Shown here in pieces: positions 1 to 3,632 of a DNA stretch of 64,000 bases. Made by a program: the position numbers and the translations under genes. The stretch is from an uncultured Opitutaceae bacterium (GTDB lineage: Bacteria > Verrucomicrobiota > Verrucomicrobiia > Opitutales > Opitutaceae), in NCBI GenBank assembly GCA_903929355.1, contig CAIYUN010000085.1:23110-87109 (forward strand). The letters are read 5' to 3'. Within the stretch, counting starts at the first letter, position 1; each line of letters begins with the position of its first letter. A model generated the notes under the pieces. That model saw nothing but the letters and a program-made list of their open reading frames with translations, had not been told where the DNA came from and did no database searches.

Positions 1-1555
1 AGCGGTAAAATATCCAGGTGGCCCGCACGCCCGCTTCCACGGGGTCACTGAACCTGGTCCCGTAGTCGTGCAGTTTCTGGCGCAGGACACCCGACGTAAA
101 GCGTCGATCCGGGGCGGCACCGACCCCGTGCAGGCTGCGGAGAAAATTCAAAGCCGAGGGATACAGAAAAACCTTGGTGACGCTTTCGTCGCGGGCGATG
201 TGAAAACCAGCGCGCACAAGTCCCGCCCGCCATTCGGCGGCGGTGCGCCAGACCAGCGGCGCATCCTCGCCGGCCACGGCCCGCCATTCGGGCAGGCTGC
301 CCTCGATGAACAGACCGGCGACAATCCGGCCCCCCTGGGAGTGTGGAATGCGGATTGCGGATTGCGGAATATCGGAATCCAGCGGGCGGCCAGACTTTGG
401 ATGGCAGGACGGATTGTCGGAAGACGGAGAGCCAACAAGCGATTGATGACCGGGCTTGAGAACCTTTCTCCAGGCGGAGAAAACCTGCGCGGGATCCTCG
501 ACCCATTGCAGCATGGCGCTGGAGAAGATCCAGTCCCAGGGGCCCGGCAGGGGATGCCCGGCCTCCATCATCCGCCAGCTGACTGCGGGCACGGCGGCAC
601 GGCCGGCTTGGGTCATCGCCGGGGAGAGGTCCGTGGCCGTCACGCCGTCTCGCCAACCGGCGAGGTGCCGGGTGAACAGGCCCGTGCCCGCTCCGACTTC
701 CAGGACCCGGCCATTGCGCTCGGTGGGCAGCCATTCTGCGAGCCATTCTGCCATGGCCAGCTGGACCAGGGCATGCCGATCATAGCCGGGGGCGGCTCGG
801 GAAAAGCTGTCGGCAACCACGGTTGAAGGCGAGGTGGAGCGCGTTGACCCCAACGCGCTTTCCGCGGCGGACCCAGGCAGCGCATTGGGGTCAACGCGCT
901 CCACCTCGGAGGCAAAAGGTTTGATCAGTCCAGCCGGGTGGTGGGTCGCGCCGGGCACGATCATGATTTCCGGCACCAGCGCGTGCAGCCGTGCGGCATC
1001 GAGCAAGGGGTCGTCCGCACCGCACCACGCGCGCCAGGCGGGGGGCATCGCGGGCGCGAGCGCGATGGTCTCGAGCTGCGCCAAGCCCCAGAGCAGGGTC
1101 TCAAGAGGCAGTTCGGCGGCGGCCGCCGCAGGCACGTCCAGCCCTGCCCGCTGGTAGAAATCCGCCAGCGCGGCCGGTCGGTCGCGGCGCAGCCAGCGGG
1201 CGAGGTATTTCACCTGGGTCAGCGCCGTCCGGCCGCCGGTACCGGCCTCGCGGGGGAAGGCATAGATCGGCGCCAGCAACGCGACCCGACCCAGACGCGG
1301 GCCGGCGGCGAGCAATAGCTGCGCGCCCAACGAGTGGCCCACCAGCCAGTCGAAGGGGCCGGCGGTGCGGAGTTTTTCCACGGTGTCAGGCGCGGCGGGA
1401 AAAAAGGTGTGGGTGGCCCCGGGAAAGGCCGCACGCGCCAGGGGCGCAAACCACCCCTCCGGCACGGCCCAGCCGAGGATCCAGGCAATCCGCAGGGTGG
1501 AGCGCGGTGAGTCCAAAGCGGATGGAACCTCCAAGGATTTCATGGCCTCGCTCAT
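1..1555 (-). CDS. bioC: BioH-like alpha/beta hydrolase fused to BioC-type malonyl-ACP O-methyltransferase (3' end runs off the window)
   Basis: Manual reverse translation from ATG at 1555: MSEAMKSLEVPSALDSPRSTLRIAWILGWAVPEGWF...WLVGHSLGAQLLL... then VLEVGAGTGLFTRHLAGW...GSLPEW...LNFLRSLHGVGA (BioC-like). No stop before position 1, so absent from the ORF track. Last gene of the bio cluster. Confidence 0.8.
   Translation of the reverse strand, partial: MSEAMKSLEVPSALDSPRSTLRIAWILGWAVPEGWFAPLARAAFPGATHTFFPAAPDTVEKLRTAGPFDWLVGHSLGAQLLLAAGPRLGRVALLAPIYAFPREAGTGGRTALTQVKYLARWLRRDRPAALADFYQRAGLDVPAAAAAELPLETLLWGLAQLETIALAPAMPPAWRAWCGADDPLLDAARLHALVPEIMIVPGATHHPAGLIKPFASEVERVDPNALPGSAAESALGSTRSTSPSTVVADSFSRAAPGYDRHALVQLAMAEWLAEWLPTERNGRVLEVGAGTGLFTRHLAGWRDGVTATDLSPAMTQAGRAAVPAVSWRMMEAGHPLPGPWDWIFSSAMLQWVEDPAQVFSAWRKVLKPGHQSLVGSPSSDNPSCHPKSGRPLDSDIPQSAIRIPHSQGGRIVAGLFIEGSLPEWRAVAGEDAPLVWRTAAEWRAGLVRAGFHIARDESVTKVFLYPSALNFLRSLHGVGAAPDRRFTSGVLRQKLHDYGTRFSDPVEAGVRATWIFYR
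340..450. repeat. Dispersed-type repeat (ATTCCGCAATCCGCAATCCGCATTCC) inserted in frame in bioC
   Basis: Minus strand GATTCCGATATTCCGCAATCCGCAATCCGCATTCCACACTCC encodes DSDIPQSAIRIPHS between KPG and the GRIVAGLFIEGSLPEW strand. Confidence 0.75.
831..907. repeat. Palindromic element: two inverted copies of GTGGAGCGCGTTGACCCCAAYGCGCT, inside the coding sequence
   Basis: Arms 831-859 and 879-907 are reverse complements over 29 nt with one mismatch. Each arm is itself a hairpin (AGCGCGTTG-ACCC-CAACGCGCT). Confidence 0.95.
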
Positions 1556-1569
1556 GGGGTGGGCCCCGG

Positions 1570-1625
1570 ACCCGGGTCTGCGACCCGGGCTACTATCAAG
1601 CAAAGTGCGCAGCAAGACTGCGCCC
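1570..1625. repeat. REP-like double hairpin upstream of the bioH/C start
   Basis: CCCGGGTC-TGC-GACCCGGG (1571-1589) followed by GCGCAG-CAAGA-CTGCGC. Confidence 0.75.
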
Positions 1626-1639
1626 CACCCATCATCTTA

Positions 1640-1815
1640 AAAAGCGCAGAAGGGTAACATAGAAAACACAGAGTCCAGCCACCGAGTTCACGGAGCAAAC
1701 CGCTTAAATAATCCAGAGAGGCGGCAAACATCGCACCGGTTGGGTGAAACCCCAGTCTTTTACCTTTCCGATGTATTTCTCTGTGAACCCCGGCTTTACC
1801 CCTGTGGTCTCTGTG
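1640..1815. repeat. Degenerate intergenic repeat of the CACAGAG/CTCTGTG type
   Basis: Contains aacacagagtccagccaccgagttcacggag, tctctgtgaacc and ctgtggtctctgtgac; similar text at 58280-58480. Confidence 0.5.
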
Positions 1816-1850
1816 ACTCACTGCTAGATCTTGGTTTATGTCCGACGGGA

Positions 1851-3632
1851 TCATGAGGCAGCCCTCCAAGCGGCCATCGCGGCGAGGAGGCGGTCGGCGT
1901 CGGCGGGGGTGAACGTGCGTTTGAGCGAGAGGCGCAGTCGGCTCGCGCCGGCCGGGACCGTGGGCGGGCGCACCGCTCCGACGAGAATGTCGGCCCCGCG
2001 CAGCGCCGCCGCCAGAGAAACCGTGGCCTGCGCGGAACCGACCGGCACCGGCACGATCGCGGAGTCACCGTCCGGCGTGTCCCAGCCGGCGGCGCGGAGC
2101 CGGGCGCGAAGGTCGCGGGACAGGGCATGCCAGGCCGGCTGCTCCGGGGCGAGGGCGCGCACGCGGACCAGCGCGGCGGAAGCGGCGGCGACGTTGAGCG
2201 GCGATAGCGCCGTGGAATAGATGAACTCGCCGGCGAAATTCACCAGATAGTCGCGCACCACCGGGTCGCGAAAGAGCGTGTAGGCGCCGCCGGAGGCGAG
2301 CGTTTTTCCGAAGGTGCCGACCAACACGTCCACGGCGTCGGCGATGTCGGCGGCGCGGACCAGACCGGCCCCCTCGGGGCCGTGCCAGCCGAGGGCATGG
2401 GCCTCGTCCACGATGAGTTGAAAACCATGGCGGCGCTTCAGCTCCGCCAACCGGACGAGGTCGGGATAGTCGCCGTCCATGCTGAACACGGTCTCGGTGA
2501 CCACGAAGACCGTGCGGCCGGCATCGGCGGTCTGGACGAGCAGTTCCTCCAGGTGGTCGAGCCGGAGGTGTTCATAGCGCTGGAGCCGCGCGCCGGAGCG
2601 CAAGAGACCGGCAATCATGCTGTGGTGCACGAGGCGGTCAGCGAGCACGAGATCGCCCCGCCGAGGCAACAGCCCGAGGACGGCGGAGTTGGCCGCGTAA
2701 CCGCTGCTCCAAAGCAGACCGCAGGGAAATCCGTGCCACGCCGCAAGGTCCTCCACCAATTGCGCATGGGGAGCCTGCCAGCCGGTGATGAGCGGCGAAG
2801 CGGCGGCCGAGGTGCCGTCCGCGCCGGCCGCCCGGGCGACGGCGGCCGCCAGCGCGGGATCGCGACTGAGGGCGAGGTAATCGTTGTCGGCCAGATTGAG
2901 GAGCCCCGGGCGCGGCGCCGTCACCCCCAAAGTGCGGCGCAAGCCGGTCCGTTCACGTTCGGCGAGGGCTTCGTGGAGACGGGAGGGAAAGGCGTTGTCG
3001 GTTTCGGAAAGCGCGTTGGGGTCAACGCGCTCCACCTTGAGATCCCCCACGTCCGACCAGAGCGGGACGCCGGCGGCGGTGAGCGCGGCCCGATTGGAGG
3101 CGGCGACAGCGAGCGGGACGGGCGAGATGGCGTTCAGCCACACGCCGGCAGGAAGGCCGACGGCGACGGCGCGCGCGTGGGCCAGACGCCCCTGGTTAAT
3201 GGCGCCGAGGCGGTCGGGGACGACGATCACCACGGCATCGACGCCGATCGCGACTGCAAAATCGGCCCAGTCGCGCCCCTCGCCGTCAACCGGGGTGGCA
3301 ATACCGCCGGCGCCCTCGAGGATCCGCCAGTCGCACGAGGGCAGCGCGCGGGCGCGCGCGATAAGATCGGCGAAGGCCAGGGCCGTGCCCTCGGCCCGGG
3401 CGGCCACGGCCGGCGCGAGCGGGGCGGCAAACGCCGCCAGGGTGAACGCGGCCGCTCCGACACCCGCGAGCCGTTGCGCGCAGGCGGCGTCGCCCTCGGC
3501 GGGCGCGCCGGTCTCGACGACCTTGACGATCTGCACCCGCTCACCGCCTGCGGCGAGCAGGCGGGCAAGCTCGGCGACCACGCGGGTTTTGCCCACGCCG
3601 GTGTCGGAGCCGCTGACGAGCACCGTGCGCAT
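1851..3632 (-). CDS. bioDF: Fused dethiobiotin synthetase (BioD) and 8-amino-7-oxononanoate synthase (BioF)
   Basis: N-terminus MRTVLVSGSDTGVGKT (BioD P-loop); C-terminal PLP domain with IVDEAHALGWHGPEGAG and LVGTFGKTLASGGAY (BioF). Start placed at internal Met 68 of the ORF (3632). Confidence 0.93.
   Translation of the reverse strand: MRTVLVSGSDTGVGKTRVVAELARLLAAGGERVQIVKVVETGAPAEGDAACAQRLAGVGAAAFTLAAFAAPLAPAVAARAEGTALAFADLIARARALPSCDWRILEGAGGIATPVDGEGRDWADFAVAIGVDAVVIVVPDRLGAINQGRLAHARAVAVGLPAGVWLNAISPVPLAVAASNRAALTAAGVPLWSDVGDLKVERVDPNALSETDNAFPSRLHEALAERERTGLRRTLGVTAPRPGLLNLADNDYLALSRDPALAAAVARAAGADGTSAAASPLITGWQAPHAQLVEDLAAWHGFPCGLLWSSGYAANSAVLGLLPRRGDLVLADRLVHHSMIAGLLRSGARLQRYEHLRLDHLEELLVQTADAGRTVFVVTETVFSMDGDYPDLVRLAELKRRHGFQLIVDEAHALGWHGPEGAGLVRAADIADAVDVLVGTFGKTLASGGAYTLFRDPVVRDYLVNFAGEFIYSTALSPLNVAAASAALVRVRALAPEQPAWHALSRDLRARLRAAGWDTPDGDSAIVPVPVGSAQATVSLAAALRGADILVGAVRPPTVPAGASRLRLSLKRTFTPADADRLLAAMAAWRAAS
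3006..3037. repeat. Third copy of the same palindromic unit, inside bioDF
   Basis: GGAAAGCGCGTTGGGGTCAACGCGCTCCACCT matches the arms at 831-907. Read on the minus strand as K-VERVDPNALS. Confidence 0.95.

Follow-up and report, generated by a model that had tools for sequence, protein, structure and literature searches.

In-frame REPs are already published for this bacterial group: the passages of the 2013 report on Opitutus terrae that concern them describe a GTGG-headed REP family and suggest that linkers and loops are tolerant of such sequences (PMC3733652). Among biotin genes, a BioG-BioC fusion of Bacteroides fragilis has been found to replace both activities in E. coli, with the sister species unfused (PMC3494674). 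For gene fusions caused by MITEs or REPs we found no match in the open-access literature, and the text of PMC3733652 contains no word beginning 'fus'.

Here we examine the biotin operon of a freshwater Opitutae genome (G000, a 3.8 Mb draft in 91 contigs) that carries ~100 scattered copies of a palindrome. The window is the 64-kb stretch of this genome that was analysed; G-numbers denote genomes and L-numbers denote loci in the comparison sets. The named relatives are uncultivated Opitutae, and their isolate names suggest a lake origin for many of them.

Results

The repeat in the biotin operon

The minus-strand bio genes of the window are bioA and bioB, both named from sequence, and the two fused genes bioD-bioF and bioH-bioC (Table 1). 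The bioD-bioF gene is a single open frame running from an ATG at 3632 to a stop at 1851-1853, with matches to TIGR00347 (E=1.2e-22) and TIGR00858 (E=4.6e-100). The longest frame of bioH-bioC begins at a TTG at 1615, with its first ATG at 1555, and is open to the window edge; its BioC part matches TIGR02072 (E=5e-27, residues 270-389), and its BioH part, which is without a Pfam match, is assigned by its conserved GHSLG and HH together with operon position.

Exact matches to GTGGAGCGCGTTGACCCCAAYGCGCT are found at three places in the window (the two REP arms and the single REP of Table 1) and no further copies are found in the 64 kb, even allowing 3 mismatches; the chance expectation from 100 dinucleotide shuffles is 0, versus 3 observed. 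The original prediction, that the three copies all lie within the bio operon, as an inverted pair between BioH and BioC and a single copy between BioD and BioF, is borne out, as is its account of the translations: the minus strand reads VERVDPNAL in the same frame at both junctions and ESALGSTRST in the inverted arm (834-859). The inverted block extends to 830-859/879-908 (97% complementary), and a longer block of 33 nt is common to both junctions (832-864/3005-3037, 100%). A decayed fourth copy, GTGGAGCGCGGTGAGTCCAAAGCG, probably lies near 1498-1524 (+), where, compared by eye, the minus strand reads SALDSPRST at the BioH N-terminus; such a decayed REP would give BioH the N-terminal extension VPSALDSPRST.

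The BioC part of G000 has a second in-frame insert (window 340-470, minus strand) of ~37 residues, HQSLVGSPSSDN...PQSAIRIPHSQ, which interrupts the BioC alignment to most relatives. It is partly coded by a 7-nt tandem-like repeat, GCGGATT, and a 26-nt pattern matches 84 times in the genome.

Table 1. Features of the fused biotin genes and their repeats (window coordinates)
Feature	Position	Strand	Description
REP arm 1 of the bioH-bioC REPIN	834..859	+	exact match; GTGG head and 9-bp stem, 4-nt loop
REP arm 2 of the bioH-bioC REPIN	879..904	-	one substitution (CAAT); reads VERVDPNAL
Complete REPIN	834..904		71 nt, two REPs head-out, 19-nt spacer; in relatives the bioH stop/bioC start overlap lies here
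Single REP, bioD-bioF junction	3010..3035	-	exact match; reads VERVDPNAL
Probable decayed REP near the bioH N-terminus	1498..1524	+	by-eye sequence comparison
bioH-bioC fusion ORF	2..1615	-	pimeloyl-ACP methyl ester esterase-like and malonyl-ACP O-methyltransferase
bioD-bioF fusion ORF	1851..3632	-	dethiobiotin synthase and 8-amino-7-oxononanoate synthase
Predicted REPIN-spanning peptide of BioHC			VERVDPNALPGSAAESALGSTR

Identity of the element and its candidate transposase

A genome-wide count, put forward with the original prediction as a check, shows that the repeat is not confined to the bio operon: G000 contains it at 103 places at ≤3 mismatches, 29 of them exact, on dozens of contigs, and the reversed-sequence control gives 0 places. 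The element is found to consist of a GTGG head and, after it, a hairpin whose 9-bp stem is perfect and whose loop is 4 nt long. More than 50 sequence variants occur, compensatory stem variants (AGCGGG/CCCGCT, AACGCG/CGCGTT and AGCCGG/CCGGCT) among them, and both sides of the stem vary together, which suggests that structure, not an exact sequence, is conserved. Of 82 elements examined in fetched stretches of G000, 54 are singles and 28 contain two or three REPs, and the total lengths of the inverted pairs cluster at 55, 70-74 and 90-92 nt. Most copies are extragenic (58 of 75 classifiable G000 elements are intergenic, and 74 of 82 in five other genomes lie outside a coding frame). With its tetranucleotide head and palindrome, dispersed high copy number, non-random doublet distance and mainly extragenic location, the repeat can be identified with near certainty as a GTAG/GTGG-class REP, and the inverted pairs as REPINs.

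G000 has four Y1_Tnp genes, only one of which has REP-like neighbours, and these are of the GTAG type; the draft has no close counterpart of the cognate RAYT, and its best homologue (40% identity) has GTAG REPs beside it. These flanks first suggested that a cognate transposase was lacking altogether, an idea dropped when eight related, REP-rich genomes were searched and the cognate was found among relatives. In G087, a 165-aa Y1_Tnp protein (PF01797, E=5.8e-6) is encoded between two copies of the GTGG REP. Its closest homologues are also REP-bordered (G106, G102, G121, G125, G043, G117, G116, G096 and G097), and the REP beside them retains the TTGnCC...CAA core. A RAYT bordered by the GTGG REP is found in ten genomes of the family, two of them, G102 and G121, congeners of G000. 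The less similar homologues checked are mostly without a GTGG REP, with single or variant copies in G015, G140, G132, G010 and G093. The REP-bordered RAYT genes (L177 1346-1966; L274-L283) are candidates for the transposase of the GTGG REP: the REP would be non-autonomous and most probably moved by the IS200/IS605-type RAYT that it borders in sister genomes, a predicted role. G000 may have lost its RAYT, or the gene may fall in a part that the draft does not cover.

In-frame copies within genes

Using fetched or listed copies and a simple codon-usage test, we found 14 of the 75 classifiable G000 elements in frame within coding sequence, and 8 of 82 elements pooled from G050, G024, G017, G061 and G102. 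By Pfam, most of the G000 in-frame copies lie between or beside domains, in genes for a sugar ABC ATPase (RbsA-type), OGG, a glycosyltransferase, altronate dehydratase, LMF1, NuoG, ABC-F and a chromate transporter (ChrA). Copies within domains are found in SufD, ValS, a carboxylase (PYC_OADA) and an aminotransferase. G001, G050 and more distant relatives have a ValS that is intact around this site but lacks the insert. Insertion would be widespread, with intragenic copies surviving where the frame is kept and a linker or loop is hit.

A new gene fusion accompanies only one of 22 in-frame elements across six genomes, that of bioH-bioC, and the idea that the repeat marks fusions in general is rejected. 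The suggestion that it marks fusion points does not hold: most other in-frame elements occupy linkers or loops within single genes of an ordinary kind.

The reading VxRVxPNA is used by 9 of the 14 in-frame G000 elements (binomial p ~4e-4 versus equal use of five open frames), a bias that may stem from selection for a hydrophilic linker or from an insertion-site preference. That five of the six frames are open makes a weak case for any special aptitude for fusion, a random 26-mer of the same G+C being about as open.

Several sites recur between genomes. The SufD REP of G000 recurs at an identical position in G017, a member of another genus (L129 1583-1608; L243), and the REP sites in ABC-F and the RbsA-like ATPase are common to G000 and G050, which suggests insertion hot spots or old copies. 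BioH of G050 carries a REPIN in frame in mid-protein, VARVDPNAWWGCAATESALGSTRST (L194 341-1225), so that bioH has been struck repeatedly in this genus. In G109, from another genus (L076/L046), bioH contains one REPIN-like family in frame, MGILPM...HGRDARAT, and a second twice in frame, VGRVIPNAP...RRVKDNPPYL, which is also present at the bioD-bioF linker of that genome.

The bioD-bioF junction

The bioD-bioF pair is a single frame in all six members of the genus and in several other genera. The GTGG REP is absent from the fused junction in G079, G024, G094, G097, G134, G035, G028 and G135, and in a set of named genomes that overlaps the first, bioD and bioF are fused at 15 of 36 loci, most of them without the repeat. 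With at least eight genomes fused in its absence, the repeat was rejected as the cause of this fusion; because the fusion is widespread without it, the fusion came first and the repeat later. The original prediction held that the fusion was caused by, or fixed with, the repeat, and it named as evidence against this precisely what is found, relatives with the same fusion and no repeat.

The same linker holds complete REPINs in G050 and G121, a decayed one in G102 and the single REP in G000, together with a different inverted repeat in G001 and a REPIN of another family in G109. The two genes would already have been fused, their linker serving as a tolerant landing site for a later REP.

The bioH-bioC junction

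Among the relatives, 18 keep bioH and bioC as separate genes whose frames differ and which in most cases overlap at ATGA. A common frame is confined to G000 and G121, both of which carry a 71-nt REPIN where the genes meet, and a GTGG-family REPIN is not found at this junction in any unfused relative examined. In the named-genome set, the genes are separate at 32 loci and fused at one, L371 (=G121). The correlation of fusion with REPIN at bioHC rests on these two fused genomes. The HH of BioH and the SFS of BioC, both conserved, are 132 nt apart in G121 versus 59 nt in G079; the difference of 73 nt is about one element and, being 1 mod 3, turns the overlapping genes into one frame. Read from the alignment, the junction length differences between G000 and G121 are multiples of three. 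In G109, where the genes are unfused, a REPIN of another family immediately precedes the bioH stop, so a nearby insertion is insufficient for fusion.

These observations make it likely that the bioHC fusion was caused by REPIN insertion, in what we infer to be one event. The REPIN would have landed on the bioH stop/bioC start overlap, removing both stop and start, and by shifting the frame +1 mod 3 would have joined bioH to bioC through a linker of ~24 residues. Of the original proposal that the repeat replaced a stop/start region and fused the genes, the bioH-bioC half stands, fusion and REPIN coinciding in all genomes examined, and the bioD-bioF half does not.

An account in which ordinary stop loss or deletion had joined the genes of both pairs before any REPIN settled in the tolerant linkers is the strongest competitor, and we consider it unlikely. 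It holds for bioD-bioF and agrees with the finding of most in-frame REPs between domains of ordinary proteins and of other palindromes in the bioD-bioF linkers of G001 and G109; for bioHC, however, it would call for REPIN-free fusions, of which none is found among the relatives examined, and the one-element excess of the G121 junction over that of G079 means that insertion alone supplies the frame change.

One fusion event or two

For the bio genes, G000 branches outside the other five members of the genus and G121 groups among those five; a clade uniting G000 with G121 is rejected (AU p=0.038). An independent tree of ValS and ABC-F gives the same placement and again rejects the two as sisters (AU p=0.0125); with the bioH and bioC genes alone, the sister relationship is not rejected (p=0.126). 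The REPIN arms differ from the consensus by 1+0 mismatches in G000 and 6+3 in G121. The coding flanks of the two junctions are ~68% identical, no closer than those of other pairs, and a recent transfer of the junction between the two genomes is for this reason unlikely.

A single REPIN-linked fusion of bioHC in the ancestor of the genus, later lost and re-split in G079, G001, G050 and G102, would explain why the two REPINs share their place, their length and a spacer start of GCCTGGG, but we judge it more doubtful still than later settlement. It requires one gain and ~3 exact reversals to a clean stop/start overlap, four steps, compared with two for two insertions; the G000 arms are near perfect in spite of the divergence of their flanks; and another G000 REPIN (L003) also has GCCTGGG in its spacer. 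With non-sister species and unequal REPIN decay, the simplest reading is of two REPIN-linked fusions that occurred independently, and the fusion would most likely have arisen twice, in the G000 and G121 lineages. We put repetition in two lineages at about even or somewhat better; that one REPIN family made the same fusion independently in two species, its palindrome acting as a stop-free linker, strikes us as evenly balanced.

A misjoining of contigs at the repeat is hardly credible: the genome is a draft in which several contigs end in the repeat, but the gene order is that of repeat-free relatives, the 71-nt element is short versus usual reads, and a separate assembly (G121/L371) has the same fusion in diverged sequence.

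Discussion

Taken as a whole, the REPIN/RAYT account, in which a mobile REPIN fused bioHC, most likely twice, and the bioDF linker was colonised later, is in our view probable. What is new is the replacement of a stop/start overlap by a REPIN, yielding a gene fusion. The DNA changes by which bacterial genes fuse are seldom observed directly, and here one genus contains overlapping genes that are still separate, the inserted element, a likely transposase for it and two cases of fusion; with all stages present in one genus, the step from operon neighbour to fusion becomes datable and testable. REPINs, usually deemed extragenic, appear able to write protein linkers, and the comparison corrects the attractive but wrong view of the element as a general marker of fusion points.

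Ribosomes are predicted to read through the REPIN, since it contains no stop, the bioC start has been removed and two diverged species both preserve the frame; an internal GTG start in or just after the REPIN may also be used. By analogy with B. fragilis, a full-length, working BioHC protein is plausible. In that BioG-BioC protein the corresponding functions are fused through a 10-residue linker, NLAPAAAASS, which is not described as a mobile element (PMC3494674).

In its GTRG-type head, short hairpin, compensatory stems, spaced inverted pairs and Y1 (IS200-like) neighbour, the element resembles REP/REPIN systems with their RAYT (TnpA-REP). It departs from the usual pattern in that nearly all copies here have the GTGG head, a sizeable minority (14 of 75 classifiable) lie in coding frames and one pair sits at a gene fusion. 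The original prediction likened it to Rickettsia palindromic elements, and the likeness holds insofar as both are mobile palindromic DNA found in frame within proteins; it is not itself such an element, those being described as ~150 bp long or as CGTC-tagged REPs, whereas the G000 element has a GTGG head in place of the CGTC tag or Rickettsia family sequence and is RAYT-associated. A further counterpart is GTAG-20 of Opitutus terrae, from related bacteria, which in the passages describing it has mostly a GTGG head and many intragenic REPs and dimers that add 20-30 residues (Di Nocera et al. 2013, PMC3733652). The likeness is one of head and intragenic placement, and the insertions described in those passages differ in lying within single genes (PMC3733652).
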